Made by a program: the position numbers and the translations under genes | NCBI GenBank assembly: GCA_023374045.1 | Contig: CM041780.1 | Span: 89,121,627 to 89,185,626 of the forward strand | Length of the DNA: 64,000 nucleotides | Direction of reading: 5' to 3' | DNA from: Limonium bicolor | Taxonomy: Eukaryota > Streptophyta > Magnoliopsida > Caryophyllales > Plumbaginaceae | Shown: positions 7,307-37,448 of the stretch, piece by piece | Layout: each line of letters opens with the position of its first letter | How positions within the stretch are numbered: position 1 is the first letter of the stretch | Notes under the pieces: model-generated | What the model was told of the DNA's origin: nothing | What the model saw: only the letters and a program-made list of their open reading frames with translations | Database searches by the model: none

Positions 7307-7310
7307 CCCT

Positions 7311-8985: not shown

Positions 8986-10153
8986 AAATACATGCAGTTC
9001 ATTTTCATTCAAACATACATGCATACATGCTCTTATACACAATATTACAATACATTACGCAAGACATACGCACATACATACACTTCATTACATACAAGAA
9101 GTACAACATAACCCATCCAATACATACTTACCTTTTTCCGAAGTACACATACACATTCCATACACAATATACAATACTTGTTAGCTTCATTGGTCCACCC
9201 AGGTTAATCGGGTGGAGATTACTCTTTTACTCGTTACTTCATACATACGCATACATACTCATACTCATACTCATACATACTTACTTACTCTTACTCTTAC
9301 TCATGTTAAGTCATCGGGACCTCCGGCCCTAGGGACTACTCCGTCCCACCTCCGGGATTTACTTGACTCACAAATCCGGGATGCTACCCATTTAAGGGAT
9401 TTGGGCCGCGGACCAGTTTAAGAGTCAGGAATTGCAGCCAACCTCTTGTGACTCCGCATCCTCACGCGTGGCCGAAGCTATATCGGACTTCTACTCATTC
9501 CAGTTTACTCACTTAAGTTAGGAGTTAGGTAGTTAGGAATTAGCAGAAGTCATTCATACAAGCCACATACACAATTACTATGCTCAATACCCATTTATAC
9601 AAAATACAATACAATACTTAAGTACAATACAAGATTCGAATACAATTCATCATCATTCATATATCTCATGAATTATACAAACTATTGTTCAAGACAAATG
9701 CCAAGAACAATGTAAACAAACACGAGTAAGTGCAATATAATCTGATTCATGCATTTATCTTATTAGGTGATCAAATAAGCACACAAATCGGGGTAACCAG
9801 ATTAGGATACAGGTCATGAAGAAATCTTACCTTTCACCGTTGACTTTGGAACTCACCGACTCCCTTCGGTGTTCAACTAGTCAAATCCTATGACATACAT
9901 ACAATTGGGTGGTTAATTATCCATAACTAACCTTACTCATTACTTCCCTTACTGTTTCCCAGTTTATACTTACTACCCCATTGTTATTCAAATACATTTA
10001 CTTAAGTTACTTACTTAAAATTATTTTCTAAACTTGTTCATGGCCTTAATGACCTTTAAACATCATCAATCATGTCTTAATTAACTTATAATATCATTAC
10101 CCATCATTACCCATCCTTACCCAAGCTTAAAAATACATTATGGGTAGTTTTTG

Positions 10154-10482
10154 TGTTGGTCCGGGTTGGTGTCCGGGTTTACAAACCCGGACCAACTCGC
10201 TGGAACAACATACAGGTGAAAATTAGGTGTGGTCCGGGTTTAGGGCTGGGTTTACAAACCCAGACCATACATTGTTATTCCTCTCGGGTGAAAAATTTGG
10301 GTGGTCCGGGTTTGGGGATTGGTTTGCAAACCCGACCATTCCTTTGCAAATCTCTCGGGTGTATTTTGGGGTGGTCCGGGTTAGTGTCTTGGTTTGTAAA
10401 CCCGGACCATCCCTTTGTAAAACTTTCTGTCGAGTTTTCATGCTAGTCCGGGTTTGTGTGCTGGTTTGCAAACCCGGACTAG
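10154..10482. repeat. Hairpin-repeat array in S1, five units
   Basis: There are five units about 65-80 bp apart, each an inverted repeat of the form GGTCCGGGTTT ... AAACCCGGACC. The bases flanking the core also pair, and differ from unit to unit; the last unit has CTAGTCCGGG pairing with CCCGGACTAG, a double compensatory change. Linkers often contain CTCTCGGGTG. Frames that cross the array are by-products of the repeat. Confidence 0.85.
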
Positions 10483-12768
10483 TTACAGTATTGCAACATA
10501 TATAAGTTTTTGAGCTTGTTTTAATTCCAAACTTCTACCAATCTCTTCCCTAATATTTCTACATATAATCTAGCATGTTTTAACTTTGTTTAAGCATTTT
10601 AAACTAGCCCAAACCACTCTATAAACTCCTTTGTCAATATCTGTTCACTTACAGATTTTTCCACTGTTATTCTCTTCTCTGTTACAGTTTTCTCCTTCCA
10701 CAATGCTATAGATTTTTCCTTAAATCTTTACCATTCAATACTCCCTCTACTAATGCTACTCCTAACATCCTCAATGCATTGCCTCAATCCTAGCTCCATC
10801 CCATTACTTAACTCCTCTTCTAAATCTGTTACAAAGTACTAAACTACTCACTTAAACTCTCCAGATACACTTAGTCACCACATAGGTTATCCCTTCCTCC
10901 TCCTCATCCAAGTCCTTCAATTTCCATAAAAATTTGGGCATAGGTTCTCCTATATTTCTAACATTTCCCACATACATTTTCAGCTCACACATTCATTCCA
11001 ATTCCCCAAATCAAGTCACACATCATTCCACACAATATACCACAATATTTTTCCTGCACATACATACTCATTACCCAATGTTTTCCCAAGCTTTTAATCA
11101 TCCTTTAAAAGTTCCAAAACAGCTACATTACCTTACTCATCATACTTCAACATACCTACTACTCATAACCTCATTCATTGCTCATTTCACCTGTTTGTAA
11201 TCAGCATCAATATACCAAACTCTCCAACACAATACTACCCATTATCACTCAATAATTTCATGCACATTCCCATTTCTTTCCTTAAGGTTTATACATGTTT
11301 TGGGATCAACTTTTGAAGCTTTAAAACATTTAAGTTCTCTTACCCATTTCACTACTACTCATTATCATTATACATCGCACATTTAAACTACTAAAAACTG
11401 TTACATAAAACATTTACAAGACTCCACAAAAGAGTGCAATTTACTTTGTTCTTTACTAGCTTCTCCTTTCTTCTTCTTTCTTTCTTCCTTCTTTCTTTCT
11501 TTTCCTTCCCACCGGTTTTGTAGATTAAATTCTCTAACACTACAACCCATACACACCACCATTCAATACAAAACTAACCCCTAACCATCTATGAAGCTTA
11601 AGGTATATTCTAGGGTTTAGGAAATCGCATTACCTTGCAAGGGTGCAAATGAAGCTTGGAGTGGTTCAAGAACAAGATTTCCAACTCCTTCAACAAGCCA
11701 AATCGGCTAGAGTGCAAAGAAACCAAACAAGGTTTTAGCTTCATTTTCGTTTTGCCCATGAGGCTGAAAAACAAAGGAGTTTCAAGAAGATTTTAACCTT
11801 AAAATGACAAGGAGGAAGAACCAGGGAACAGGTTTCTTCGTGTATTTCTAATGGTGGTCTTGAAACTCCAATGCTCCATACCCATGTAGAAATTGTTGTT
11901 TTTTTCGATTTTTGAAAAGATAGGAATGTAGCTCTTGATGAGAGGATTCCAATGTACAATTATGTAATTTTTTGGAGGAGATTTGAGGTAGTAACAAGAG
12001 GAGAGAAGTGGTGTTTTTGTTTGGGTTTGTTTCATTCCTCCATGGCTGTCGCTGGAGAAGGAAGAAAGAAATAGAGAGTGAGGGGGAAGGGGCTGCTACG
12101 TGAGTGAAGAAATGAGAGGATAGGAGAGAAGAGTGTGAGTGGTAAAGTAATATATGTTACTTTTTGCTTTGAAATGCTTTTGTCTTTTGTGAATAAAAAA
12201 GAGAATAGAGAGTGTGTGAGAGAGAGAGAGCAAATCGTGACACACACAGCCCATGTGGGTTTTAGAATTCTATTTACAATATTGGACACATAAGTTTTGG
12301 TTATTTATGTTTCTACCCCACAACTTCCCGTTTTGACAGTTTTTACTAATTGCTCGTTTTATGATTTTATTGGTTCTAAAGCTTCACTAATATTTATTAA
12401 TGATTATTTACCAAAATTGTTACGAGTCTATTTGACCCCTTAAAGACACGTTTCCCCGGTTACCTCGAAAAACACGTTTTAAGGTTCTATTAGCGTTTTA
12501 ATTCATTATTTGGATCCGTTTTCTTCGGGAGTTGTTCCCATATATTATTTAGGTCTTATTAAACCTTTGGAATCCATATAATACGCTAACCGGTCTCATA
12601 CCTCCTATGGTTATTTTAACGATTATTTAGCGTTTTTCGCTTTTTAAGCGTTTCTTTTTCTTTTTGGATTTATTCTCCTTACCAATATTAATTAGGTACC
12701 ATTAGGCCCTTAAATACGTATTAGATTAATTTTAATCCTTATGTTTAAGTTCGGGGTATTTCAAAAGT

Positions 12769-15700
12769 ACCCGGGGGAATTTCTTAACGCTCCTTTTTGC
12801 CCCGGGACTGTCCCGTTAGCCGAAAATTGAGTTACAGTTTATAACCCCATATAACTCAATGTAACCACTTAACATATTATTATTGACTATAAAAATGTCA
12901 ATAAACACTTGGAACTCATAGCGACTAATTATTTTTCAGAAAATCCTTAAAGCACAAAAACGCACCTTTGGGTGTCACAAAAATGCGTTTTACGCAATTG
13001 CCTTGAAGTTTTTGAGGAGCCATGAGTTGATAATATTAAAAGGTGATAAATTGAAAATCTAAATCAATTAATTCCAGTGCTAAAATCATAGCACAACCAG
13101 GGGCTATTTTTGAGTCAAAAGGTACCTAAAATCAGCATTTTTACCTTAAAACTTTCACCTTTTACCATAATAAAAATGTACCAATTAAATGTGGGAACCT
13201 ATTACACATATTAGTATGGTCTTAGTACAATATAATGTAACAAAAATCAAATGAAAAATCAATCCCATTTAACCTCTATACCATGCGCCATTTAAGGTGT
13301 ATATTGGCTAGATTTTTACAAAAATGTTGTCTTATGCTAACGTGACTCATCCAGCATGTGTTACATGATAAAGTATCAAATAAATACTGTCAATTGAACC
13401 TTCACCCACTGTGTAACCTGCAAGGGATAAGCAAGGAAGATTAGTATATGACAAGAATGAAATTAAAAAAATGCTAAAAGTGAAGCTAGATTACAATAAT
13501 GTAAAGGTGGTGACTAGATAAGCAAACAACCATGTGCTGTCCTATGGGCTGGAGATTTCTATACAGAAAGGAGGGAGTTATTGCCTACAATAATCAAAAG
13601 AAACACTACCTAACAATGCATTATCCTTTGTCAAATAACAAACAAAAATCAATTGTCTTATATGACATGTGTGCCCGATTTTGTCAAAGAAAGGAGTCTT
13701 GTTTACCTTATTAAAAATCAAGCTAGATTATCTACAAACATAGCCATGTTCCTATGTTATTAATTGTCAAAAGTCAAATGCCATACTAACCATTACATTA
13801 CCGTAAGTGCTAGAGGGAATCAAGGGAGAAACAACACTTAAATTGCTAAATTATTACCTTGGTCACCTTGTCTTGTCTTCTAGTTTCAAGTGGCCAACAA
13901 AGCTCCATTATTTCCCTTGTAATCAACCAATTTCTTGCAATCAATTAAGGGGCTTTCTTGAGCCAATCAATCAAGTAATTAACAAAGAAAAGCTAGACAA
14001 TTATTGGCATTAAACTATCAAAAGAAATTGATTCATTCAATTGCCTTCTTCTAATACCAACGTGAGCTTCATTCTTCATTGCCTTCCATGGCCGAATGGT
14101 AAGCTCCCCCTCATTCTCTTTTCTTCTTCATTGACATTAATTCCTTAGAGCTTCAAAGCTCCATTAATGGTGTTCTAAGCTCTAACACCATTTCTATGTA
14201 ATTTCCTAGTTAAATCTACTAAGTCTTGAAGCAAGAATCATCCTAGGAATTCTTAAAATTTTTGCCAAGGTTAGATGCTCCAAAGGAGGTTCCTAGATTC
14301 AACAACAACACAAGGAACAACAAGATCAAGTTAAGGTATATTTTTATGTTGAAAAATCCTAAGTAATTATCTAAATCATTTTCAAAAATTTAAGAGCTTC
14401 TAAATCTATATTCTCTTCATTATTTCATGAAGGAAACTTGGATCTACAATCATCACAAGGTGTATCAAAAATACCTTGATAAATTCCTAAGGTAAACTCT
14501 TGTAAAATTTACTCCAAATCTTATTTATAAGTTTTGTTAGAAGTCTAACAAATGGATCTCCTAAATATATATGGTGGCCGAATTCTCTTCATCAAAATAG
14601 CATTTGGAGAGCTTGGGATTCAAGGAGAAAATCAAGTACAAGAATTGTCTTGATTTAAGGAGTAAGTATATATATTAAGGTTCATTAAGTTTAAGCTTGA
14701 TTTAAGCTTCAAACTTTGGTATAAAAAAAATTTATACATAACCTCTAAATAATTAAGGAACCAAAATACTATGGGAATAATGTTAAGAAAATAATTTATA
14801 ACATATAAGGTAGATTATTACCTTAAGGTATAATTATGTGTCACAAAATTAATTAAGATACATATATATATGTAAACCGAAATACCTAAGAGTTATTTGT
14901 TCTATTTTGAGATTATAATCATTCTAAGTCATTAGCATAATTTTTAGAAGTGTTATATGGCTTATACATTTATATGTATTTATTATAAGGTTTAAATCAA
15001 GTTTTAAAACCATATGGTAAAATAAAATCAGGCCGAGAATGATATGGGTTTATTTGGGTGATTTTCGAAATATATAAGAATATTAACTTATATTATAAAT
15101 TTTTGGAATATTAAAAATAGCTACAAGTATTTAAATGGCTAGTTTATAAAGTTATGTGGCTAAAATGTAAATTTTGAAAAGTTTAGAGTACAAAGAATAA
15201 AAACCGAGAACAAAGGGGTTTGTTTGGTATATTTACATTATAATATAAATAGGAATTAATATTATGAATTTTGGTGAATTTAAATAAGTGTTTAAGTGTT
15301 AAAATAAATTTAATAAAGTTTTGGGGCTATTTTGTAATTATTGGAAAATATAGTGTACGACTGAGAGTTACTTATGATTTTATGGGTTTATTAAAGTATT
15401 AATTATGAAATTAAGTCTTGGCCAAAGTGTTGACCAAAAACTTTGGGTTAAAATGATTTATGACATAAAATATTAAGTTTATAAAAGTCTTGGGGTGAAT
15501 ATGTAATTTATGGAAGATTCTATATAAAACCGAATTAGTTTGGGGCGAAATCATAATTTAAGAAAATATATGGGATACTTCGGTTATTTAAAAGAAATAA
15601 AATATTTAAACTATAGTTTATAAGTTAATATGTAACTTATATAAAGTTTGGGGTTTAAAAGTGAATAAAGGAAAATATAAGTGAAACTGAAAATTAAGGG

Positions 15701-17776
15701 GTTTATTTGTAATTTATAAAAGTTGGTATAATGAGATTGTAATTTACAGAAATTAAGGTGGACGTTTGGTAAATTAAAAAGGGTGTGGATGATTAATAAT
15801 TACAAAGGTTAATGTGGGTAATTAGTGAATAATGCAAGTTATAAGGTTATTTGGCAATTTATAGAAGTTAATATAATTGTTTACAATTTCCAAAAATTAA
15901 TATGGGTATTTAGTAATTATAAAATATGGTTGTTTGGAAAATTGTAAAAGCTAATGGGTTCAAATTATGATTACCAGAAATTATATGTGGTTATCTAGTA
16001 ATTTATAAAGTTGTTGGGTATAAAAAAATAAATATACCAATAATAAGGTTGGTTTTGTAATTTAATAAGGAAGGAAGTAAAACTAGGTAGTATAATGTAT
16101 TATGGTATATTATGGAGTATAATATAAAGTTTATAAAATAATTGTGTTATAATAAAAATGACCAAGGATATAATATAAAGGATAAGTGGAAACAATTATG
16201 AGTATATAATTAAGAAAGTAGAAATATACTACAAGGTGAAAATTCATGATCACATGTGAATATCACATAAAATAACGAACTGTTGAACTACGTAGAACCA
16301 TGGATAAATAACAGGGGGAACTAAAGAACATACGGAGTTAGTATACTACGTAAATAAACTCTACAGTGACAGTACTGTAATATTTAATGAATAGTTATAT
16401 TAATATTACCCGGTATTGCATGTTTAAATAACAGCTTACGGGAAGGAACTACTGAACAGGAACTTGTCAAGCTAGCAGTTACATGGTGAACGCTATGTTA
16501 ATTGTGTGGTCTGAATGTCCTAAGGATTGTCCTAAGGTCCAGCCATTATGTGATAATTGTTTAAGAGCGATATCTGTGATTTTGTGTGTATAATATTGTA
16601 TACTGTATTGCTCAACATTGTTGCGTTGTATGTTTACGCGAACGTCTTATGACTGTAAGTTTATACATCTAAACTGGAACAAGACTAACTGACCTTTAGA
16701 TATTATTGGGCCTAACTGATGGTCAATATTATAGTCGTAACTCAAGGATTGGTTATTATGTCACTGACAAAAAGGGCTAACATATAAAGAGAGGAATCCA
16801 GACTGTTCCGACATTCTGGTTGCGCATTATGATCACTACGAGAGACTTCATGGAGAGTCACTCAAGGAAATCCATCAGCCACATTGGGATGGCGGAGGGC
16901 ACTGCCGTTGGTGCACAGGTTCGACCGGATCGGTCAATTAACCAGGGCCATAGGGTCAACTGGTAACAGTTCCAATGGAACACAGGGACTACTGTCCATT
17001 AATAAGTTTAAGGGTTGTCTTGCATGACGCCTGAGGTGAAAATTAATTGGAAAAGGTTAAATGATTGGTTTAAAAGATAAGGGCCAGGTGGCCAACTAAC
17101 AAGTACAGTTTAATACGCGTATCTTGTTTGGTTATTGTTATGGTTTATTGATATGTGATTATTGGTTATTGCTGTGAATTATTGACATGCAATTATTGGT
17201 TATTGCTATGGATTATTGATGTGTGGTTATTGGTGTTGTGAACTGTTGTACACTGGTGTTTACAGGTGGATTGTATGTGATTGTTAAATGTTTACAGTTA
17301 TTACTTGTAAACCGGTATTTCATGTAAAGAACCTAATATCAAGATGACTAAAACGACTTAAGGAGTCCAAATGATTTAAGACATTTAGCATACCAGCATT
17401 TCGATTGCTGAGCCCTTCAATGGGCCAAACATTCCAGGTTATTGAAGAGACTCAAGCCGGAGTGCGGGACACGGGGGTAGCAGTTGTGTTTTCAACAAAT
17501 ACTTTTGGTTTTATTTTGTATGGTATTAAGAAGGTTGTTGTATTCAGTTAGTTGCTCATTTAGTTGGATTGGGTTGTAATAATTAGAGTGCTCAGTATCT
17601 GTTCATCACAGCGTGAGGGATTGTATTGTTGGAAAGAGTAAGGATGCCTTGTTGCTCACAAGGGCGAGTAACGGCGTGTATCACCAAGGTAGATAGTTTT
17701 ATTTTCCGCTGCGAATTGTTATTTATTATGCTATGACTTGCGACATTATTACAGGTTTAGGACTAGGGGTGTTACA
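12769..17776 (+). repeat. 3' LTR of element A, second part
   Basis: This continues the LTR after the S1 duplication (AAAGT at 12764-12768). The distal part, from about 15660, is the copy of 1-2127. The unmatched part (12769-15660) is AT-rich and has no credible gene. Several AAGGTA-type donor-like sites lie at 14090-14670. Counting both parts without S1, the LTR of A is about 5.6 kb long. Confidence 0.85.
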
Positions 17777-17781
17777 ACAAT

Positions 17782-19354: not shown

Positions 19355-19384
19355 GTGTTCAATGTAGAAATTTGTCTCTGGAAT

Positions 19385-19583
19385 GGACCGACCCAGAGGG
19401 TTTGGGTCGGTTGGTTTAACTCTGGGTCGGACTGATGGTTTTCAAAAGACGGAAAAATTTCTAAGATGGACCGACCCATAAGGTTGGGTCGGTCGTGGGT
19501 CGGTCTAAGGGAATTGTTCGAACCAGAAAATTTCTGGGACGGACCGACCCAGGGGTTGGGTCTGTCGGTGGGTCGGTCGACCC
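19385..19583. repeat. Hairpin-repeat array in the B 5' LTR
   Basis: There are three units built on GGACCGACCCA ... TGGGTCGGTC, with extra copies of the TGGGTCGG arm. The 3' LTR copy has about two further units, so the truncation of this LTR falls within the array. Confidence 0.8.
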
Positions 19584-20640
19584 TTAACACTTAAAAAAAA
19601 GAAAAAAAAGGAAAAAAAAGAGATGCTTAATGGTATTAATGGTACACCATTAAGGGGGCAATGATGATTGGAAACCTAGAGACCTAGGGGATTAAGTAAG
19701 GAAATGACTTTAATGTTTAAAACTAAGTTTGTAAGGTTAAGTATAAAACTTAAGAAGTGTTAGATGGGGATCATTATGGGTTAAGTAAGTTAATAAGTTA
19801 GGTAATGTCTAGATAATTAATAACCTAAGTTTGATGAATTCTAGGACTTGAAAGGTTGGAACCCAGAGGAGATTAGACAAGGGGACAATCGACGGTGAAC
19901 GGTACAATCTTTCTTGTGACCTGCTTGCTAACGAGGTGTCCCTCAGCTTGTGTGCTATCTGTTTATTTGCTATGACTAAGACAAGATAAAGCATGCAACT
20001 GGTTATACTTGTTCTAGTTGTGAATGTGTTTTCCTTACACTAACCCACGAGACTTGAGATTGTTACTAACTAAGTTTAGTACTTATTGAGTTAAGAAAAG
20101 GAGTTAAGTATTGGTATCTGTTGGTTAATACCCGTTAAGGTTTAACTTACACATAGTTTGTAAGATTTTCACTAACTGAAACTTAAGGGGGGAGTGAGGA
20201 ACCCGGGACTGACTCCGGTCATGCATGCTAAGGAAAGGGGGTCGGTATCTGAATCAGATCCGTCCTTTGCTTAAGGACTTGTCTTCGGACTTGTTGCCTA
20301 GGGTCGGTTACCGGCTCAGCTACACTGGACCCCCGTCCAAGGTAAGGTGGCATTAAGATGGTGCAGTAGGATCACCTAAATCCTAAGTTTAAGGTAAGAT
20401 ACAACCATTTCCATTCTAGAAACGGTTTGTATACTGAGATTAAGATAAGGATAAGACTGAGGTAAGTTAAGGTGAACTGAGGTTAAGTGGAATCAGGTCT
20501 AAGGAGGTGGTTACTAACCCGCTTGGTAAGGGAACGCTTGAGTCGTTCATTTGTGTGTGAACTATGTATGTTCATCTGTGGATGGTTGTTTATTGCACTT
20601 CATATTATGATTGTGTATCTAATCAATTTCCATGTTATCG

Positions 20641-20737
20641 ACAATTAGTCGTCGTAGCCCCGTTAGCTTGGGGGCCATGAGAGGGCGTACCAGCATTCGT
20701 GCTGACCCCCTTTGGGGGCTGTTTTTACACTTGCAGG
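20641..20737 (+). other. Three-hairpin module in the B 5' LTR
   Basis: Stem I is GCCCC with GGGGGC, stem II is CAGC(ATTCGT)GCTG, and stem III is CCCCC(TTT)GGGGG. A T-run and TTGCAGGTAAG follow, which looks like a splice acceptor. The arrangement matches the other seven LTR copies. Confidence 0.7.
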
Positions 20738-21091
20738 TAAGAGGCCCATGAAGTCACACCACGAGAGTAGGAGCGGTTAGACTTAGGATGGGTTACTTAT
20801 TTTTGAGCACGGGTTGCGCATGTGCGCCTGTCTGTTTATATTTAAACTGATGTAAGTTTGTGCCTATGACTTAGATACTTAAACTCGGTTGGTTGGTGGT
20901 ATTTTGGTTGGTGGTATTTTGGTCGGTTGTGTATTTTTGGATAAGTGTTGTAAATCGGTAAGGTTCGGTATATTCTAATGATCAGACCGTGGCAAGGTCC
21001 CGGTGTTTGTTATATCCGCTGCGACGTTTGTGATTAAGTTGTTAAGTTTTGCGATATCCACGAATGGCTTTGGACGGGGTGTTACGAAAAG

Positions 21092-21119: not shown

Positions 21120-21957
21120 CTTGAAATACCGGACATAAGTAACCACCGAGTTAGGTTATGAGTTAAGACATAAGTAATGGGTTAAGGGTGTGAGAAGTTT
21201 AAGTGAGTAGAGTCAGATGACCACTATTAAGTGTGGATCGTCTTTACCGTCTACGGACGTTATAAATTTGTTAACCGAAACAGTGGTGGATACGAATCTA
21301 ATGTGAGTTGTGATTGTTCAGATGTCAGGAAGGAGAGGCCGAGGCCGTGGTAGAGGCGATGATGCTTCAGAGATACCGGGAGGGCAGACGATCGCAGAGA
21401 TCGTAGCTGCCGCTTTAGGGCACATGGGCTATCAGCCTGGTGTAGGTGCACCACCTCCACCGCCACAGCCCCAGGAACCGAATTGGGTGAAGAGTCTGGC
21501 CGACCTTCGACCCGCACACTTTAAGGGGGAGACAGATCCCACTAAGCTTGAGGCGTGCATCTCCGAGCTGGAGACCGCCTTCGAGACCCTTGACGTCCTT
21601 GCTGGGATCAAGGTGCGTCTAGCTGCGTTCTACCTGAAGGGGGCAGCAGGCGATTGGTGGAAGCTGGTGAGGGCCGAGCATGTGGCCAATCCAGACTTCG
21701 GCTGGGACCAGTACACAGTATTGCTACGAGCAAAGTACTATCCCGCCCTTGTCCAGACGAAGAAGCGCCTACAGTTGGATGCGCTCAAGCAGACAGACAA
21801 GATGACGGTAGACGAGTATTACTCGGAGTTTACCGCCTTGCTTCGTCTTCTGCCAGGTCTAGGATATTCAGACCAGATACTGGTGGACCGCTTCTATGGC
21901 GGGCTTAGCCATCGACTCCTCTACGGCATGGGGCCGACGAGCTATACTACCTTGCAG

Positions 21958-22043
21958 GTAATGAGAATGGATGAGATAAGAGTAAGTAAATGAGTAAAAT
22001 TTAGACTGTGGGAAATAAGAGAAACTAATACTTTGGAAAGCAG
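21958..22043 (+). other. gag intron 1 of element B (86 bp)
   Basis: CAG|GTAATG to AAAGCAG|GAG, with ACTAATA upstream of the acceptor as a branch site. Removal joins TTLQ to ECYHAAAKVEIT in frame. The homologous junction in C has the same exon ends but a different intron sequence. Confidence 0.75.
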
Positions 22044-22291
22044 GAGTGCTATCATGCCGCTGCTAAGGTTGAGATAACCGTCCAGCTGAGGGACGAGGAC
22101 AATGCTAAGAGAAAGAACGCCGGGAAGAGCACCGAGCATCAAGGGCAAGGAGGGTACAAGAAACAGAAGTACCAGCCTCAAGCCCAGAAAGGTCAGAACC
22201 AAAAAGGAAGGAAAGGAGAAGGCTCCAGAAGAGCCACTGAAGTTGACATATGCATATGCAGCTAAGCCCCTGCGCTCAAGGGCGCTAAAGG

Positions 22292-22371
22292 GTAAAGAAG
22301 TTAATATAGAGTGAGTTAAGAGACAATTAACAACCGTTTAAGATATGAGTACTAACATTGTGAATGATTAG
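22292..22371 (+). other. gag intron 2 of element B (80 bp)
   Basis: AAAGG|GTAAAG to GATTAG|GAT, phase 1, with a perfect TACTAAC branch site at 22350-22356. Removal joins the basic linker to the zinc-knuckle exon. Confidence 0.75.
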
Positions 22372-22713
22372 GATCTGAGACTGATAAGGGAGCCGGTGGT
22401 AGCTACCAGTGACGCTACATCTGTCAGTGGTGTCACAAGGACCACCTTGGGCTCGATTGTAAGGGAAAACAAGGTTGAGTGCAACTACTGTGGGGTGTAC
22501 GGGCACCGAGCATACGAGTGCTTCCGGAACCCCGCTAGCAGAGCCTTTAGGCTCGAGATGAGGGGCAAGGGCAAGACTGATCAGGGAGCTGGATCTGACA
22601 GTCAGAAGAGAGTGCAGCAAGCTGCAGACAAGAACCCACGGGTAGCCCAGAAGTCGGACCCACACTACACATGGTGGACCGGGACGATGAGCCTGAACCC
22701 TCATCGAGACCAG

Positions 22714-22845
22714 GTACTGCTAAAACCGTTAAGTGATATAATTACCTGCTTACCGCATTATCATGCATGTTTGGTGAATAATTGAGTTAAGTGAGAATAA
22801 GATAAGATTAGAACTTAAGTGAGATATGACCTATTACCACCTTAG
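22714..22845 (+). other. Intron 3 of element B, between the Gag zinc knuckles and AlkB (132 bp)
   Basis: CCAG|GTACTG to CACCTTAG|GAAAC, phase 1. Splicing gives an unbroken Gag-AlkB frame (RPG joined to NFNICYP). Retention brings a stop a few codons into the intron. C has an intron at the same codon and phase. Confidence 0.75.
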
Positions 22846-23585
22846 GAAACTTCAATATTTGCTATCCAATGCCTTCAACACCTAACCCGGAATACACCAA
22901 CATCGAAACCCGAGACTTTCCAACCGGACAATGTCAGGTCATCCGCCCAGGTATGATATTATTAAGGGGATACCTGACACCCGAAGCACAGATAGCCATC
23001 ATCAGGAGATGCAGTCAACTAGGATTGGGACCGGGAGGTTTTTATACATCGGAGTACCCAGGAGGAGCAAGAATGAAGTTAAAGATGATGAGCTTAGGCA
23101 AGGATTGGAATCCATATGCCAAGACTTACCAAACCGTGAGGACACAAGATGGAGTCTCACCACCAGGCATACCCGAAGAGTTCCATCCGGTAAATACACA
23201 AGTCATGGAAATCGCTCAGCAGTTGGAAGCTGAACCGATTCCAGACATACAAGTAGACATTTGCATGGTAAACTTCTACGAGAAAGACGGGCGACTCGGA
23301 CTACACCAGGATAAGGACGAGACAACGGGGTCTCTCGAAAGAGGGATACCCGTAGTGTCTTGGTCCATTGGGGATGATGCAGAATTTTTATACGGCGAGC
23401 AGAAGCGTGCGGACCGTGCAAATAAGTTAGTACTTAAGTCTAGAGATGTATTAATTATGGGAGGAAAATCGAGAATGTTGTATCATGGGATTAAGAGAAT
23501 TAAGCTGAATACAACACCGTCAGCAGTGATTAATGCGACGCATATGAAACCAGGACGGTTAAACCTAATCTTTAGACAATATTAG
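22846..23585 (+). CDS. AlkB-type 2-oxoglutarate/Fe(II) dioxygenase exon of element B, intact
   Basis: AlkB enzymes use Fe(II), oxygen and 2-oxoglutarate to remove alkyl groups, mainly methyl, from nucleic-acid bases, releasing formaldehyde. The exon is open throughout (2 + 738 bases including the stop). Numbering from the internal ATG at 22869 (238 residues), the iron ligands are H146 and D148 (GLHQDKDE) and H206 (YHGI). The 2-oxoglutarate and nucleotide-lid signature near the end reads R230-L-N232-L-I-F-R236, RxNxTxR with T replaced by I. An N-terminal GGFY and a KMMSLGKDW block resemble the ALKBH1 branch as I know it. It sits between Gag and Pol and joins Gag in frame by removal of intron 3; it could also be translated from the internal ATG. 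No signal peptide or membrane segment is visible. The substrate is not shown by the sequence. Confidence 0.85.
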
Positions 23586-23726
23586 CCATGTAACGTTTTT
23601 AGTATGAAATAAGGAATGAGTTGTAAGCAGGAAGCACATGTTGTAAACAGGATGGTTATGAATAAAATAACAGTGTTGTTCATATTAATTATTACGACTC
23701 TTGTTATACCATCATTACTCATGAAG

Positions 23727-26700
23727 CTTGTGAAACACAATTAGGTTATGGACTCGGTACGGAAGGTGCGCTAAGCATACTTACAGAGGTACAGGCTGGC
23801 GCAAGCGGCACTATCCTCACCGCACCTTTCCGATTAATGGGATTGAGGCATCGTTCTCTACGACTCAGGGGCCTCGCATACCTTTATCTCGGCATCTTTT
23901 GTGAGAAGGTTGGGGCTAGACGCTGCAGACGCTGACGAGCTACCCGACTTCACGTTACGCTCCCGTCTAAGAGAAGATTCGTTGCACTCGCTACTACCGA
24001 GGAGCCATCGTCAAGATTAAGGGAGAAGATTTTCCAGTTAGTTTCATCGAGTTCAAAGAGTTGGGATTTGATGTTATTTTCGGGATGAATTGGTTGGAGC
24101 GGCACAAGGGACGTATCCTCTGCGCCGAGCATCAACTGTTGCTCAGGAGTCCATCTAGGGTAACAATATCATACCGCCAGAGGCCCAGGGAGCCTTCGAC
24201 TAAGATCATCACCGCCATGGCAATGTACAAAGAATTGAGGAGGAAGGAGGAAGTGTACCTCTGCTATGTCTAGGACATAGAGAGAGACCCCGAGTTCGAC
24301 CCCGACTTACCGGTAGTGTCGGAGTTCCCCGATCTCTTTCCACGGGAACTGCCCGGCATGCCACCCACTCGGGAGGTAGAGTTCACCATCGAGCTGCTAC
24401 CTGGTACCGGACCGATAGCCAAGGCACCATACCGCATGGCTCCGGTAGAGATGAATGAGTTAAAAGAGTAGTTAAAGGATTTGATAGACAGAGGATTCAT
24501 CAGACCAAGTGTATCACCATGGGGAGCGCCAGTTCTCTTCGTGAAGAAGAAGGATGGTAGTCTCCGCCTCTGCATCGACTATAGAGAGTTAAATGTAGTG
24601 ACAGTGAAGAATAAGTACCCACTACTCGAAATCGAAGACTGAACACGAGGAACACTTAAGGAGAGTATTGGAGATATTGAGGGAGAACCAGCTATATGCT
24701 AAGTTCTCCAAGTGTGAGTTTTGGCTTGACCAGGTCTCTTTCCTGGGTCATGTCATCTCAGATGCTGGGATCTCGGTGGATCCAGCAAAAATTGATGCCG
24801 TGCGTACCTGGCCAAGACCGAAGACGGTTACTGACATTCGGAGCTTCCTCGGCTTGGCAGGTTACTACCGGCGGTTTGTTAGAGATTTCAGCAAGGTCGC
24901 GAAACCGATGACCAGTCTAATGAAGAAAGATGCACCGTTCTTGTGGATGGCTGACTGTGAGAGATCATTCCAGAGTTTGAAAGACTCCCTGACCACTGCA
25001 CCGGTTCTGACCATTCCAGACGGTACGAAGGGCTTTGAGGTTTACTGTGATGCATCCGGCAGAGGGCTGGGTTGCGTGCTCATGCAACATGGCAAGGTGG
25101 TGGCATATGCCTCACGCCAGTTGAAGAAACATGAGGAGAACTACCCCACACATGATCTAGAGCTAGGAGCTGTAGTCTTCGCTTTGAAGATATGGCGCCA
25201 TTACTTATACGGGTTAGTGTGACGATCAACACCGATCACAAGAGCTTGAAATACATATTCACTCAGAAGGAGTTGAATCTCAGACAAAGGAGATGGTTAG
25301 AGTTTCTGAAAGACTATGACATCGACCTCCAATACAAAGAAGGGAAGGCCAATGTTGTAGCAGACGCCTTGAGCCGTCGAGCACACTCACTCCATTCGCT
25401 AGTCTCTTTCTCCAGCTTGGTTGATGAGGTGCGAGAGGCTCAGAGAGTAGATGAGTATATGAGAGAGGTCAGACAGAAGCTGACAGATGGTAACTTTGAG
25501 AGTCAGAAATATGACTTCAGACTTCATGACGATGATCTGATCAGACTTAAGGGCCGATTATGCATACCACGGGGCAACATAGATCTGAAAGACCGTATAC
25601 TTAGAGAATCACACTGTTCTTCAGTTTCCATCCATCCGGGAGCCTCTAAGATGTATAAAGACATGAAGAGATACTTCTGGTGGTCGGGAATGAAGACAAA
25701 TGTTACTGAGTTCGTCTTGAGGTGTCTCACATGCCAGAAGGTAAAATTCGAGCACCGACGACCGGGCGGAATGGTACAGTCGATGCCAGTTCCGGAGTGG
25801 AAGTTCCATGATATCTCCATGGACTTTGTAGTTGGACTCCCACCTGCTAGGGGAGGTCTCAACATGATATGGGTAGTGGTGGATCGCCTTACCAAAGTAG
25901 CCCGATTCATAGCGATGAAGGATACTTGGAAGGTCACCAAATTAGCTGAGTTATTTGAGAAAGAAATCATGAGACATCACGGGATACCAAAGACCATAGT
26001 GTCAGATAGAGATGCCAGATTCCTTTCGAGGTACTGGAGAGCTACTAGAGAAGCGTTGGGTACAGAACTGAAGCTGAGTACCGGTTCCATCCTCAGACAG
26101 ATGGTCAGACTGAGCGTACGATTCAGACACTCGAGGACATGCTGAGGGCATGTGCCTTAGACTTCCAGGGCAGTTGGATTGACAAATTACATCTGATCGA
26201 GTTTTCATACAACAACAACTATCACCTTCGATCAAGATGGCACCTTTTCAAGCGTTGTACGGTAGACCATGTCGTACACCACTCTGCTGGGATGAGTCGA
26301 GTGAGACAATCATTATAGGACCAGAATATTTAGAACAAGTTAAGGCTGAAGTTCAGCAAATCAGGGAGAATATGAAAGCTGCTCAAGATAGGCAGAAGTC
26401 GTATGCTGATGTTCGACGACGAGACCTGGAGTTCACAGTGGGCGACCGGGTATTTCTGCGAGTATCACCGATGAAGGGTGTGTTTAGATTCGGGCAGAAG
26501 GGCAAGATGAGCCCTAAATTTGTTGGTCCTTATGAGATTACGGAGCGGGTGGGCCCGGTTGCTTACAGGTTGAATTTACCAGCTGAACTGGGTAAAGTGC
26601 ATGATGTTTCTCATGTTTCACAGCTAAAGAAATACATGCACCACCCCTCCCATGTGTTAGAACCTGCAACGTTGACGTTGGAACCGAATATGAGATCTGT

Positions 26701-26860
26701 GGAGACTCCTCAGAGGATCTTGGACAGTAAGACTAGGGACACTTGCCATAAGTCAGTGCGACTGGTGAAGGTTCTCTGGTCTAACCAAGATGTCGAAGAG
26801 GCCACATGGGAATTAGAGGATAAGATGAGGGCGAAGTACCCTTATTTGTTTACCGACTAG
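23727..26860 (+). pseudogene. pol of element B: protease, broken RT, RNase H, integrase, chromodomain
   Basis: Aspartic protease: DSGASHTF at about 23857. Next comes GFDVIFGMNWLERHKG (about 24065), TAG at 24271 and again at 24469, and the start of reverse transcriptase ([24 protein letters not shown]). About 100 codons are then deleted at about 24625, joining KYPL to the YSK that normally follows FIDDILV, so the catalytic aspartates are lost. After this come the connection and RNase H ([12 protein letters not shown]), a frameshift at about 25212, the H2C2 zinc finger ([11 protein letters not shown]), the integrase core ([19 protein letters not shown]) and shifts at about 26085 and 26222. The end is a clean integrase tail and chromodomain (VKVLWSNQDVEEATWELED), stop at 26860. 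The AlkB exon ends in a stop upstream, so how Pol is reached is unresolved. Confidence 0.85.
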
Positions 26861-27144: not shown

Positions 27145-29560
27145 TGAAATACCCCAAACTTAGATATGGTGTTTAAGTGATAAAATAAGATATAAGGAGG
27201 CTAAATAATGCCTTAGAAACATTAGGGAACAATTTAAATCAAAGAAAACATAAGGAAACACCAAAAGAGCAGTTAAGCAAAACGTGCTCTAAGCTTGGAG
27301 AGACTTGGGTGAGCACCCAAATATCATGCTAAGACCTTAGTAATATCCTAATGGTCATTTTAAACCAATTACCAAAGAAAAAAAAGCTCAAAAACAAGTT
27401 AAAACACAAATTGTGCCTTAAGGACTCTTAAAGCACATTTTTGAAAAATTGTCTTAGAAAAGGGTTTTAAGTGGCTAAATGCCCATGATTACTCCTTAAT
27501 TAACTTGTGTACTAATTAGTATCACATTAGGAAGTCTAAATCAATGGGAAATCAAAAATTTCACAATTATGTGCACTAGTTTGTGAATAGTAATCAAATA
27601 GTGCCTAGTTTAGTCTTTAGTCAATTAAGTTTAGTTAGTTGGTCAAACAAGACCATGACTAGCTTAATTAAAGGGGGTGGCCTGTTTTTAAGGTGATGAT
27701 TCACCACATGATCAAATAAGAAAAGAAATAAGAGATAAAGTAAGAGTTACTATTTGCTTTTAACATAAATATCCCACCTTTACTTACCTCTCTCCTCACC
27801 TCTTCATTATCTTCTCTCACCACCGATTTCTCTTGCTCTCTCCCTTCTCCATTCACGTAGAAGACACCCCCATGCTAGCTCCTTCTTCACTTGCTTGCCA
27901 AACACACATCTTAGCTCCAAAATCAAAACTAAACACATATTCTTCTTAATTAGCTCAAGCTCCTTCTTCCTATCTTTTCAAAACTTCAAGAGCTTTGATT
28001 TGGTGCCAAGCCAAACCGCCATTAGAGGAGGAAACTCAAGCTTGGAGACTCCATTAGCTTGTCCATTCTCTTAAGGTAAAGAATATGTAAGAAAATCTAG
28101 GTTCCCACCATTTTTCTCCATAACCGAAAATCTATACTCGTGGGGCTTCATGTTTATGCCTTGCTCTAGCTGTTTTCTATTCTCCAAGGGATAGAGGAGG
28201 TTCTACTTGCTTCATATCCAAGCTTATTCTAAGACTCCAAGGTAAAACAATCAATTTAATACCATAAAGCACATTTTTAACCTAGGGTTTGTTCCTTAAG
28301 GTTAATGTATTATCTAGTACTCATTAGAGTCATTGGATATTGGTTAGAACATTGGCAAGGAGAGTTTAAGTGGTGAGCAGATTGTTCAAAGGAAAAGGCT
28401 AAGGGAAAGTTGTGAAGCTTGTAAAAGAGCAAGGTAAATGTCTTACCTTAAGGTGTTTTAATGCATTAAGGGATGGGTTTGAATAGGTGATAAGCTTAGC
28501 TTAGAGTTTACATTAGAAAAGGGCAATAAAACCTAGGAAAAACAATGATTATACTTGTGAACTTGTGACTAAGGAGCAAATGAGAAAATGAGATAGTTTA
28601 AGAATGTCAAGGTGAATTATAAGAGAACTTATATTGCAATGGGAGCCTTGTTGTGTGTATTTGCAGGTCAAAGGCTATATATATTGAGGAAATTTAGTGT
28701 TTAAGATTTGTGCATTTAAGGGCCTAAGAGCCAAGCAATTTAAGTTTATGCACTATATTGTGATGTAGTGTAGTTTGGTGTATGATGTGTGCTAAGGAGG
28801 TTTGATGAGAGTTTGAATGTAGACAGCTATTTAATGGTGAAAAACTAAATTTTTTGGTGTAGCAATATACTAGAGAACCCATGGCAAAATTTAGTGAAGA
28901 ACCTAAGTGTTTAAGATGTGTTAAGGAGATTTTATGACTAAGGAAGTACTAGGAATTTTAGGAGTTGTTTTGGTTGAAAAGGAATGAGTCTAAGATGTTC
29001 TAGTGAACTAGGATGACTTAGGTATGTCTATGAGGACCTAGGGGTTACAATGGTGAATTTTAGGCACCAAGACCTTGATAAAAGAAGTTAGAAGACTTGT
29101 GCAAGTTTGATGGGAATAAGGTGTAAGACTTTGAAATGGTTTAGGTGAGAACTAGAGTTTAGAATCTAAGGAAGTTTGATAAATGCAATAAGGGTGGAAA
29201 GTAGTGTATATGGAGTGGTCAAGTTCTTAAGGAGGGAGCATTTGGTTAGTGAAAATTCTAGGTGAATTGCATGTTAGAAATGTAGGGAAAATAAGTGCAA
29301 AGTGTTGAAAGTGTTTGTAAAATTGAGTAAAAGGTTGAGAGAATCTTTGGAGGTTGTTTTAATGAGTTTAATGGGTTTAATAAGGTGGGTTTAATGTGCC
29401 AAGGTGGTGTTAGACCTATTAGGACACTTGTGGAAGAGTTTGGAATTGAAAGAACAATTTAAGAGAAAAATCTGTAGTGGACCGACCCAGGGTCCGACCC
29501 AGTTCTGGGTCGGTCGGACCAAGTTAAGCCAGCCAGAATGTCTCTGGATAGGACCGACCC
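27145..29560 (+). repeat. 3' LTR of element B, first part
   Basis: It starts TGAAATACCCC and is cut by element C inside the hairpin array; its last five bases (GACCC, 29556-29560) are the target duplication of C. A TATA-like ATAAATAT lies at 27765-27772, followed by a pyrimidine-rich stretch. Donor-like sites such as CAAGGTAAA lie near 28075, 28242 and 28432, and an acceptor-like TATTTGCAGGT at about 28658-28668. The first kilobase is recognisably related to D and to the LTR of C. No gene is seen in it. Confidence 0.85.
27765..27772 (+). promoter_or_regulatory. Probable TATA box of the B 3' LTR
   Basis: ATAAATAT lies about 620 bp into the LTR, followed within 30 bp by a pyrimidine-rich stretch. 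The two LTRs of C have TATAAATA in the matching context. Confidence 0.5.
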
Positions 29561-29946
29561 TGTAACACCCCTACTACACACTTAACATTAAATGAAATCG
29601 TAGTGGAAAAAAACTAACAATAACTAAACGATTCGGTGCTACAACGCCGTCAACCACCCACATGGTTAACAAGGCAGAATAAATACAAGTGTACCGGTCT
29701 GATGATCAGACTCCTGAGCATTAGGTACTAACATCCACACATATATATACATAACCAACATACTGAGTATTTAATACAACTGTCACTGTATACTGTACAC
29801 ATGATCTCCACTGTCAACTGTAACACGAACAATACCAAAATATAACGCCACGGGAGCACAGGCGCATCCCGGGCCCAACATCCAAAATAATAAAAGTATA
29901 CATAACCTTGATCTACAACCACTCTGCTCTTCCTCGATCCTCATCC

Positions 29947-30048
29947 TGCAGTTAAAAATATGGAGCCCCCAGGGGGTCAGCAACCCTTGGCTGGTATGGT
30001 TAACGCGCAGCCCATCGGCTACCGGGATACGCGCAACTAATTGTCATG
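29947..30048 (-). other. Three-hairpin module in the left LTR of C
   Basis: On the minus strand stem I pairs GCGCG and CCC with GGG and CGCG, stem II is CAGC(CAAGG)GTTGCTG, and stem III is CCCCCTGGGGG. A T-run and CTGCAGGA follow. Stem I differs in sequence from the other subfamilies but keeps pairing. Confidence 0.65.
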
Positions 30049-30921
30049 ATGACATGGCATTCTGTTAACACATAACATATACATATGGCATAGCAATAAT
30101 ATTGCATAGCACAACATCACATACAAAGTGAATGCACTTTCCACAATAACAAACCAAGAAGGTTTAGCAACATAAGAAGCCTAGAGAATGGTTCACTCTC
30201 ATGTTAAGCTTGTTACACACACTCATTACCGTTCTGTTATTCGAACGAGTAACTTAAGTCACAGATGGTTCAGATATTGTGACCCGAACACACCACACAA
30301 ATACATGTTCCCACTAAACCGATCATAAGTAAGAATAGGTAAGCTTTGGAGGAAGCTAGCGGGAGATCGAACGTCAAATGAAGGAGAACAATCTTAACAA
30401 CATAAGAGTCGAATCTGATACAGATATCTACTCTTAAACTTACATGCATGACCGGACAACCGGATTCCTCACTTCCCAGTTAGCACTTGTTAGAAGTTCA
30501 ACAGTGGAACTTAACAAACAATTCACAACAAGTGGTAAGTCACGTTAGACACACAAGGGAAATGAGTCACATCATAACATCACAATAATATGAACAACTG
30601 TAAACTCATTTCATGATTAAGTCTTACAACGTCATAAACACACAGAAAAATAAACAACACACAAGCCGGTGTAAACCGGTAGGCAACAGACTGCAAGAAA
30701 ACCATACCTTGGTCCTTGCTTTGATTGATTTTCACCGTAGGCCACTCCTATACATAGTTGAGAATGTCGGTTAATTAACTTACTTAACTTCAAATTTACT
30801 ATGTGTTTAACATGTTTATATGACATGTTTCAATGCCCAAACTTATCCTTGATTACCTACATTATTCCCCCTAGGGTTAACTACTTAAGCCATACTTTGT
30901 TTGTTTTTTTTTTCCAAGTTT

Positions 30922-31334
30922 AGGTCCGACCGAACTTACCGACCGACCTTACACAAGGTCGGTCCATTCCAGAACCTATTACCGTCAAAATTTTCTACTC
31001 CGGCCGACCTTGTAAGTTCGGTCACATGTTCGGTCAATTCCCGAGAGTTTCTTCCCTTTGAAAATTCAGGCCCGACCGATCTTGGCAAGTCTGGTCACAA
31101 GATCGGTCGATTCCCGAGACTCACTCACGCACAAAAATATAGGCATGACCGAACTTGTAAGTCCAGTCCCAAGTTCGGTCTATTCCAGAGACTCAATCCG
31201 TACTAAAAATCTATGCCCGACCGACCTTGCAAGTCTGGTCCCCAAGGTCGGTCCATTCCAGAAACCATTTCTCGCAGGGTAAACTGGGCTCGACCGATCT
31301 TGGCAAGTCCGGTCGCAAGATCGGTCTGCTCCAG
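30922..31334. repeat. Hairpin-repeat array in the left LTR of C, six units
   Basis: The units are about 70 bp apart with the form GACCGANCTTG ... CAAGNTCGGTC. The N pair is T-A in two units, A-T in one and C-G in others, always matching within a unit. Linkers contain ATTCC(A/C)GAGA. The copy in the right LTR (41345-41748) has the same units with more single-base gaps. Confidence 0.85.
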
Positions 31335-32964
31335 ACCCTTATTTTTCATTGCCCATTTAACTCCAAACTTCACCTCATATATCCTAGTATGTCCTACCCT
31401 TATTTGGGCACTTCAAACACACCTTAAGACCTCCTTAAAATTCCTTAAATCATTCACTAAAATCCTCCTCAAGCATTACACAAACTCTTATAGAAAGGTT
31501 TACACTTATAATGTTTTTCACTAAGTTTCTATGTGGTGTTTCATACCTATAACTTCCACTATTCCCAAATGTTTTCTCACCACTACAACATCATCTCCCA
31601 AGCATCTTTCCTTCCTAACCAACTCCTTGGATATCTCTACAAGCTTATAGCCCCTCCATGCAACACATCACTTCTTCTTATTCACCAACATTGCACAAGT
31701 CCTAAACACAATCTCACCATGATCTTGAAGTGTCCCAAAACATTCTTTTGCATTCTAAATACTCTAGAATAATGCTTAAGTCCCTTTTACACCTTAAAAC
31801 ACCATAATGCATGTTTCTTTCACTAGTTGAACACTTAACCATTCTAAACATTTCCTAACTTACCAAACTCATTTTAGACACTTAGAACTTCTTGTTTACT
31901 ACCTAAATTTTGACATGAACCCTCCTAGAACATTGCTAAGCCAAAACACATTGTTTTCACCATTAGACAATCAAGAACACTAAAATCCATCGAGAACATT
32001 CTTATACACAAAACTTCACTCATTTAGCACTACATCACAATATAGTGCATAATTTAAATTGCTTGGCACTTAGGCCCTTAAATAACATGGCTCTTAGGCC
32101 CTTAAGATGCATAAACCATAAACATTGAATTTCCACAATATATTTGCCTTTGACCTGCAAATACACTCAACAACACATATGCCTTTTACTAGTTCTCCTT
32201 GAGAACATCTTACTAAGTCATTCTCCATTGGCTCCTTAGATCATTTAACAAGCAATATAAGCTCATTTCTCCTAAGACTTTAAACCACATTAGGTTAGCA
32301 CATTTACCTCTTTTCCTCACAACTTCTTCCTTGTTTCCTTGACTAAATCGGCAAGGCTTTTAGCTGCTTGTCAACTTCTAAACATTATACAAATGATAAA
32401 ATGAGTATACAAGCTTTATGCTTCATCTCATTGTAAACCCTAGATTATACATTGTTTTAAAACATTAAGATAGTTGTTTTACCTTGGATACAAAAGAGAG
32501 TTTGGATATGTAGCAAGAGAGGACTCCACCTAGTCCATGAAAGGTTGAAATGAAGCTAGAACAAAGCAAGGTAAGGGCACCATTAGTGGTGATTTTTGGA
32601 CAGCATAAAAACATGAAGGAAGTGTTATTTTTCTTTGAGTTTCCTTACCTAGAAGCAAAGGAGAACAACAATATGTGAAAAAATGAGCTCAAGCTCCTCC
32701 CATGGAGATTCTTCTTGGCACCAAAATGGAGCTCTTGAAATTTTAAAAGGATAGAATTGAAGAGCTTGATGAGAGGAAGAGAATGGTGGTCTTAGAATTT
32801 GATTTGGCAAAGTGAGCAAGGAGATATAAGAGGTCAAAGATGATATTGTGTGTGGTACTATTGCAAACCGTCAATGGAGAGCAAGAAGAAGATAGAAGAG
32901 AGGTTGAAGACGTGGGAAATGAAGAGGGAAATGAGAGAATGAAGATAAGTTTACTTTTAAGAGA

Positions 32965-32972
32965 TATTTATA
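32965..32972 (-). promoter_or_regulatory. Probable TATA box in the left LTR of C
   Basis: The minus strand reads TATAAATA, about 630 bp into the LTR, followed by a pyrimidine-rich stretch. The right LTR has the same at 43355-43362. Confidence 0.6.
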
Positions 32973-33599
32973 TGTTAAAGTAAATAGTAACCTAAGTAGT
33001 CATCTTTTATTTGTTTAACAAACTAACAAGAGTGGTGACTCACCACTAAGAAAACCGGCCCCCTTAATGTTCTTAGGGGTATTTTAGTCTTTTTTTGACC
33101 AATTAAATTACTTACATTGACATATGTTATAAACTTGGTTAATTTGGTTACTATTCACTAAAACAAGGCACATAGATGTGAAATTTTTTATTTCCCATTG
33201 ATATAGACTTCCAAATGTGATACTAAGTAGTACACATATTAATTAAAGAGTAATGATGGACATTTAGCCATTCAAAACTCATTTACAAGACAATTTTTCA
33301 AAAATGTGCTTTAAGACTCCTTAAAGCACATTTTGTGTTTTAACTTGTTTTCAAGCTTGGTTTTCTTTGGTAATTGGTTTAATATATTCATTAATATATA
33401 AGTAAGGTCTTGGTAAGCTCACTAGGTCTTAACCAAGCTTATCCCAAGCTTAGAGCACATTTTAGCCCTAATTGACCTTAAGGTATTTATTTGTGTTTTC
33501 TATGGTTTAAATTGTTTACTATGTTTCTAAGACTCTTTTTAGTCTTAATATACCATATTTTAAATGTTTAAACAACATACTAAGGTTTGGGGTATTTCA

Positions 33600-33616
33600 A
33601 TCTACCCCCCTTAAAA
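33600..33616 (-). other. 3' polypurine tract of C
   Basis: The minus strand reads TTTTAAGGGGGGTAGAT, directly before the TGAAATACCCC of the LTR. Confidence 0.85.
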
Positions 33617-33842
33617 GAACTTTGTCCTCAAAGTTCATACTTCCATATATCCTAAATATTAAAACACGGGAATACATGTAAATAATACTTCCATAACAAC
33701 ATCGACAACATACTTACATAACATCGGACACAAGGTCCATAAACAACATCATACAACATCATTCAGACACACGGTCTGTAACATAACACATAACATAGAC
33801 GATGTATTTAAATTCACGTCGTACACACATAACCGAAACGGC

Positions 33843-33857
33843 TCTACCCCCTTAAAA
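33843..33857 (-). other. First polypurine tract of C, next to the pol stop
   Basis: The minus strand reads TTTTAAGGGGGTAGA about 35 bases after the pol stop, the same doubled arrangement as in A and B. Confidence 0.7.
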
Positions 33858-33891
33858 TAGGGGTACGCCCCGTACCCTATACATACAAATA

Positions 33892-37280: not shown

Positions 37281-37448
37281 CTAATAAGTATTGGGTAACA
37301 ACACGGTTGATATACTTCAACAATTCCACTTTATTCATTAACACACTCTTCTTACATCATACGTTGGTTTACACTGTTGACATAACTAACACATATATAA
37401 CATCCTTAACATACACTGGCTTAACACATTACATAATTATATAAGGCT

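Follow-up and report, generated by a model that had tools for sequence, protein, structure and literature searches.

An ALKBH1-type AlkB domain between gag and protease of Ty3/gypsy elements in Limonium bicolor, probably joined to Gag by alternative splicing

AlkB domains in Ty3/gypsy elements were published in 2022 for Phalaenopsis: the Gypsy_Pa_2799 elements make up 8.6% of the P. aphrodite assembly, and a screen of 121 genomes in the same study found AlkB elements absent from the other plants (PMC9289625). The accessible parts of PMC11963269 and PMC12786077 cite the Phalaenopsis case and name no other. Here we describe an AlkB domain of the ALKBH1 type in a likely chromovirus of Limonium bicolor, element A, which lies in a 64,000-nucleotide stretch of contig CM041780.1 (assembly GCA_023374045.1, positions 89,121,627 to 89,185,626, forward strand; hereafter the window). 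An earlier, sequence-only reading of the window had proposed an AlkB dioxygenase between Gag and Pol and did not count such a domain as a standard part of Ty3/gypsy elements, a point that the Phalaenopsis report corrects. In the literature searched, which left subscription papers mostly outside its scope, neither an ALKBH1-type domain in a long terminal repeat (LTR) element, nor a chromovirus with AlkB, nor a Gag-AlkB splice form was found described.

The coding part of element A is arranged as follows (a slash marks a splice border):

21307..22713, plus strand: gag (capsid and zinc knuckle; frameshifts in this copy), PF03732 7.7e-17 and PF19259 1.1e-11
22714..22845, plus strand: putative intron 1, 132 nt, donor CCAG/GTAC, acceptor TTAG/GA
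22846..23585, plus strand: AlkB exon from acceptor to stop codon, ALKBH1-type 2-oxoglutarate (2OG)-Fe(II) dioxygenase, from the PF13532 match, the OsALKBH1 match and the model
22714..23744, plus strand: putative long alternative intron (intron 1, AlkB exon and spacer), 1031 nt, acceptor AATTAG/G before protease
23745..26860, plus strand: protease, reverse transcriptase, RNase H, integrase and chromodomain-like end (stops and frameshifts), from translations and Pfam RNaseH, H2C2 and SH3_Tf2-1

The frame 22830-23585(+) is 251 codons long without a stop and contains the full PF13532 2OG-FeII_Oxy_2 profile (E 4.6e-41, with 141.6 bits where the cut-off is 31.2; positions 1-194 of 194), which bears out the AlkB domain that the earlier reading had placed at 22846-23585. 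The iron ligands HxD...H and the RxNxxxR 2OG site are all present, with HxD at residue 159, the distal H at 219 and RLNLIFR at 243 of that frame; the H146, D148 and H206 named before are these same ligands, numbered from an ATG at 22869. All 19 stop-free copies, a set selected for open frames, retain HQD, YHG and RLNL. By sequence, the top match in the PDB is 5xeg (1.9e-69), which is rice ALKBH1 according to the accessible part of PMC8118384, followed by E. coli AlkB (1.3e-21), and the 22 PDB sequence matches include ALKBH1 and lack ALKBH5. An AlphaFold model of the domain (pLDDT 89.2, pTM 0.88, from 28 sequences) gave as best Foldseek matches 5xoi (E 1.7e-28, 48% identity) and 5xeg (9.8e-28), both titled 'The structure of OsALKBH1', whereas human ALKBH5 (7wkv) reached only 3.8e-8. 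Among the 120 of 248 protein matches listed, many carry the source names ALKBH1C/1D or DNA N(6)-methyladenine demethylase. Sequence and predicted fold together confirm the assignment of the element A domain as an ALKBH1-type AlkB dioxygenase, with rice OsALKBH1 as its nearest solved structure.

In element A, stops separate the coding stretches of gag, AlkB and protease from one another. The donor border is 22713/22714, the AlkB acceptor border 22845/22846 and the protease acceptor border 23744/23745. One base of a codon stays with the donor and each acceptor brings the other two, and gag can therefore continue into either AlkB or protease: the predicted joined readings are ..SRPG NFNICYP and ..SRPG YGLGTEGAL, respectively. 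The term exon chosen by the earlier reading is apt. Its start, 22846, directly follows a predicted splice acceptor and thus marks an exon boundary rather than a codon boundary.

We searched the 2.92-Gb assembly that holds the window for further copies. GLHQD(K/R)DE, searched as an exact degenerate pattern, occurs at 16,663 places and its reverse at none; at about 14 kb per motif place, this would amount to about 8% of the genome. A search with the protein of element A gave 53,253 first-look candidates, of which the best 150 were scored and all 150 match, 115 of them with no stop listed (hand count). A search with a piece of the AlkB domain of element B, a second element in the window, likewise matched in 150 of 150 for the best 150 of 41,486 candidates. 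A host-type peptide did not lead to the ALKBH1 gene of the host itself among the best 150 of 37,467 candidates scored; 12 loci cut out from that search form a third family, C, which is 55-58% identical to A (nine loci with a single full-length match) and has gag matches in 11 of 12 loci and protease matches in 11 of 12. By these matches, the domain is carried by three element families, A, B and C, and the A and B loci used below are best matches to the window copies, not a random sample.

Two side observations concern the genomic copies. Runs of four copies at about 10-kb spacing occur on G000:C1 near 7.39-7.42, 1.43-1.46 and 497.44-497.47 Mb, as if whole elements stood in tandem with shared LTRs. 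In many separate B-type copies (among L021-L050), single bases are lost from the run GTCGTTAACC near AlkB codon 117. We rejected a single broken AlkB common to many B-type copies, as the single-base losses in this one run differ; their enrichment among B-type copies comes from the query peptide, which was itself in the shifted frame.

The splice sites are kept across the families. In the A loci, GT is found at the donor in 19 of 20 and AG at both acceptors in 20 of 20; in the B loci, the counts are 28 of 30 for the donor GT, 29 of 30 for the AlkB AG and 28 of the 29 located for the protease AG, with the same codon phase as in A. In family C, read by eye, the donor context is G/GTAAGC instead, in eight of nine aligned loci (the ninth, L056, is without that gag end), and the acceptor contexts are other ones too, with the same phases; five of the six loci with a protease match have two phase-fitting AGs at the protease acceptor. 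We take gag to end in one predicted donor that can pair with either of two acceptors, phase-matched across A, B and C.

Splicing of a retrotransposon RNA can leave a footprint when the spliced RNA is copied back, and we looked for such junctions with a 32-base pattern spanning the gag-AlkB join, allowing up to three mismatches and using the reversed pattern as a control. The pattern was found at 18 places and the control at none. Reading all 18 gave 17 precise, frame-keeping gag-AlkB joins (11 A type and 6 B type), which fall into 12 groups at an identity of at least 96%; in two of these copies, L066 and L079, the AlkB part is open through to the stop. A corresponding A-type gag-protease pattern occurs at 14 places (control 0), and the four of these that were read are all precise and frame-keeping, L082 having a frameshift a few codons on and L083 a stop further upstream in gag. 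These precisely intron-less genomic copies indicate, indirectly, that the intron is removed from element RNA. Since copies joined to AlkB and copies joined to protease both exist, the choice of acceptor probably makes either Gag-AlkB or Gag-Pol.

The remaining place, L077, which would make a 13th group, was dropped from the count as it keeps the intron: it is a mosaic in which the last bases of the intron are like the end of the gag exon before AlkB, and suggests template switching between spliced and unspliced RNA. One could ask whether all joined copies arose in such a way, by template switching of the reverse transcriptase or by deletion between short repeats rather than by splicing. L077 itself and the AG/G common to the splice sites, a microhomology of 3-4 nt, would fit this. 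We nevertheless consider it very improbable: the loss is precise from GT to AG at two different acceptors and always in the frame-keeping phase, and gag-AlkB joins occur in two families and at least 12 sequence groups. In ordinary copies, the two borders share no repeat beyond AG/G, and simple repeat-mediated loss is therefore a poor explanation.

The joined copies also bear on whether the enzyme would be made as a Gag fusion or as a protein of its own from an internal start codon. The orchid precedent is a separate open reading frame (PMC9289625), copy A has the ATG at 22869, and a Met at residue 37 is near-invariant in the domain alignment. The ATG at 22869 is, however, poorly kept, with Met in only 2 of the 11 A-type joined copies (Ile in six, Leu in two, out of frame in one), and a start at Met37 would lose the host-like FDIC stretch, which is in phase with gag in A, B and C. 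Together with the existence of the gag-AlkB joined copies, this leaves a separately started protein as a rather unlikely product, and a Gag-AlkB fusion as the form we prefer.

To place the domain among plant AlkB proteins, we built a maximum-likelihood tree of 45 domains, which separates 20 element-type sequences from 25 plant host proteins across one branch with a support of 100/100. The tree is unrooted and was made without the host's own ALKBH1 and without other plant AlkB subfamilies. The 20 element-type sequences are those of A, B and C with the database proteins P0001-P0004, which come from contigs of 26.6, 26.6 and 10.0 kb (P0001-P0003) and 1.2 kb (P0004) and which we take to be element-borne solely from their placement in the tree. 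The ratio of nonsynonymous to synonymous substitution (dN/dS), calculated by NG86, is 0.07-0.15 in 27 of 27 pairs of intact A and B copies, with dS saturated; among A copies, 29 of 36 pairs lie at 0.11-0.21 and the other seven, all with dS below 0.08, at 0.14-0.83. A codon maximum-likelihood analysis of 19 stop-free A, B and C copies gave an omega of 0.181 with a log-likelihood of -4511.2, compared with -4770.7 when omega was fixed at 1 and kappa at 2. These codon analyses, made on stop-free copies only, support purifying selection on the AlkB domain in the element families, and a single capture probably preceded the divergence of A, B and C. A one-off fragment of a host gene, one of two outcomes that the earlier reading had said would overturn its proposal, was rejected on the copy number (16,663 motif places), the grouping in the tree and omega; the other, a lack of any AlkB profile match, is contradicted by the PF13532 match.

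We propose, as an explanation that we think somewhat better than even, that the catalytic part of an ALKBH1-type gene was captured, is kept as an alternative exon, is expressed as Gag-AlkB by splicing and acts on nucleic acid of the element. A chromovirus-type Ty3/gypsy element would have taken up the catalytic portion of an ALKBH1-type dioxygenase from a plant and kept it between gag and protease. Splicing from the gag donor to the first acceptor would give a Gag-AlkB fusion ending at the old stop codon of the host gene; splicing to the second would skip AlkB and give Gag-Pol. Gag-AlkB would co-assemble with Gag, so that the enzyme is carried into the virus-like particle as Pol is, and there it may strip RNA or single-stranded cDNA of the element of N6-methyl or alkyl groups. 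The outcome would be an escape from silencing that is based on methyl marks, or the copying of damaged templates.

The most likely purpose is an erasure of marks or damage on the element's own RNA or cDNA that counters host control, as the earlier reading had suggested. The accessible parts of PMC12973404 and PMC8118384 state that plant ALKBH1 orthologs remove N6-methyladenine (6mA), particularly in single-stranded DNA. This literature and the nearest solved structure point to N6-methyladenine in single-stranded DNA, possibly also in RNA, as the predicted substrate; the target could be an RNA mark, a DNA mark or alkylation damage. In what we could consult of PMC12786077, the RNA of the retrotransposon Onsen is kept in stress granules by N6-methyladenosine (m6A) until its erasure by AtALKBH9B, and according to the same source and PMC12973404, also seen in part, m6A on retrotransposon RNA promotes heterochromatin at retrotransposons.

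The enzyme might instead act in trans on host mRNA, chromosomal 6mA or tRNA. When OsALKBH1 is lost, genomic 6mA rises two- to threefold, and the protein is located in both nucleus and cytoplasm, as given in the accessible part of PMC8118384, and cellular RNA is offered as one option in the discussion of PMC9289625. A fusion to Gag would be expected to place the enzyme on element RNA or in the particle, and we hold action in trans to be unlikely. More tentatively, and with slightly less than even confidence, we suggest that the choice between alternative 3' splice sites fixes how much Gag-Pol is made relative to Gag-AlkB, that the Gag fusion carries a 6mA eraser into the particle, where it cleans genomic RNA or single-stranded cDNA before integration, and that the capture is independent of the orchid case and of another AlkB subfamily, making this a recurrent counter-defence.

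Several observations weigh against the proposed capture and use of the enzyme. The joined copies are few, with tens found where donor sites of the unspliced A type number 4,805 (0 for the reversed pattern), and several of the 17 gag-AlkB copies have stops or shifts elsewhere; spliced RNA may seldom be copied back, which would fit an unspliced RNA serving as the genome. Among the best 120 of 168 database matches there was no Gag-AlkB or AlkB-Pol protein of about 450-1430 residues, none of 875-2784 residues among 3 of 3 database matches, and no Gag-AlkB or Pol-AlkB protein among the 120 of 248 matches listed in the domain protein search. The entry of Gag-AlkB into particles is assumed. A second capture is possible, as the host ALKBH1 was not found and stands outside the tree. 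Finally, the copies in the window are themselves broken, and 35 of the best 150 A-type copies have stops in the domain (hand count). Such decay would also be expected of a functionless piece of a host gene carried along, an explanation that we find scarcely credible: the element-type domains of three families group together, omega is 0.18, the splice phase is kept and the catalytic motifs are intact in all the stop-free copies, picked for open frames as they were.

The remaining features of the window surround this coding part:

19358..21085, plus strand: 5' LTR of element A, 3' part; self-BLAST 96.3% to 44043-45743, and ends
27145..29560, plus strand: 3' LTR of element A, first part, broken by element B; starts TGAAATACCCC after a purine tract and resembles the B LTR
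43990..45744, plus strand: 3' LTR of element A, second part; self-BLAST and ends
29561..43989, minus strand: element B, whole insertion nested in the 3' LTR of A; 5-bp target duplication GACCC, and flanks
37449..38199, minus strand: AlkB exon of element B, split by a frameshift; PF13532 on two pieces
35775..37280, minus strand: protease-reverse transcriptase frame of element B, open; RVP_2 1.5e-27, RVT_1 9.9e-36
1..17780: element D, of the same kind; LTRs 1-2131 and 15675-17780
3630..4015, plus strand: degraded AlkB remnant of this third element, D; tblastn pieces, best E 6.3e-11

The order gag, protease, reverse transcriptase, RNase H and integrase between LTRs is the Ty3/gypsy arrangement. 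The earlier reading had placed the AlkB exon between the zinc knuckles and the protease of a chromovirus, and protease and reverse transcriptase do lie downstream. The zf-CCHC zinc knuckle upstream of AlkB (E 0.003) and the Chromo match (E 3.7e-4; 20.8 bits, cut-off 25.1) fall below the Pfam cut-offs. Because the chromodomain match is sub-threshold, element A is only likely to be a chromovirus, and its placement in the Tekay/Del clade is a guess; Pfam gave no Chromo match in the element B frame 34074-34880. After the 5' LTR of element A stands the primer-binding site TGGTATCAGAGC, which we take to match initiator tRNA-Met.

A second AlkB copy had been proposed at 37449-38181, and does match PF13532, on the minus strand; it is split by a frameshift into pieces 37449-37862 (3.3e-34) and 37837-38199 (0.0013, below the Pfam cut-off) and extends to 38199. 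The LTRs of element B (29561-33599 and 40001-43989) have a divergence K of 0.0196, compared with 0.0221 for the measured part of A and 0.0252 for that of D, giving ages of about 0.75-1 million years at an assumed rate of 1.3e-8 or 1.4-1.8 million years at one of 7e-9. Element D contains gag (2643-3353), the AlkB remnant and fragments of pol, and a long stretch of non-coding sequence precedes its 3' LTR. At 53235-54842 and 60284-61629 lie further LTR pieces (65-78% similarity) from this kind of element, apparently a single LTR that about 5 kb of unrelated sequence interrupts, and frames at 62038-63441 resemble, by eye, a degraded Ty1/copia pol.

Among described systems, the host enzymes plant ALKBH1 and ALKBH1D (OsALKBH1, 5xeg, 5xoi) share with the element domain the fold, the catalytic residues, the C-terminal GRLNLTFRQY-stop and the FDIC stretch. 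The element domain is 44-50% identical to 23 host-type proteins, and differs in being without the host N-terminal region and in having a shorter linker before the P-I-P-D strand. Plant RNA viruses and giant viruses likewise have an AlkB fold in a virus genome, and their structural match is remote: the best viral AlkB model in the fold search has E 1.5e-11 and 16% identity. In Ogre, EVADE and BARE, as described in the accessible parts of PMC12786077, PMC6317226 and PMC3735527, RNA splicing likewise decides which polyprotein is made; those elements splice to join or shorten gag-pol, whereas here two acceptors would lead to Pol or to an added enzyme. If the proposal is right, this choice is a way of loading an accessory enzyme on Gag that is undescribed in the literature searched.

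The closest system is that of Phalaenopsis Gypsy_Pa_2799, likewise a plant Ty3/gypsy element with a captured AlkB fold, catalytic residues kept and a very high copy number. The orchid domain is of the ALKBH5/9B/10B type in the Tat/Ogre lineage (PMC9289625), whereas here it is of the ALKBH1 type with a chromodomain-like integrase end; that the ALKBH5/9B/10B type does not apply here was judged against human ALKBH5 and the PDB matches, with the orchid sequence itself outside the comparison. The orchid elements have a tRNA-Arg primer site, compared with TGGTATCAGAGC here, and encode the enzyme in a separate 565-aa ORF2 beside a single gag-pol open reading frame, whereas here an alternative exon is in phase with gag; the separate-frame layout is replaced by gag, AlkB and pol that are separated by stops and joined by phase-matched splice sites. 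The orchid protein is an m6A demethylase in vitro; for the domain described here, demethylase activity is a prediction. Two plant retrotransposon lineages with two AlkB erasers would, if both hold, be strong evidence that methyl marks restrain transposition, and the ALKBH1 type would point to DNA (6mA in single-stranded DNA), beyond m6A in RNA alone. AlkB in plant Ty3/gypsy elements is not new, and the case described here differs from the published one in subfamily, lineage and splice arrangement.
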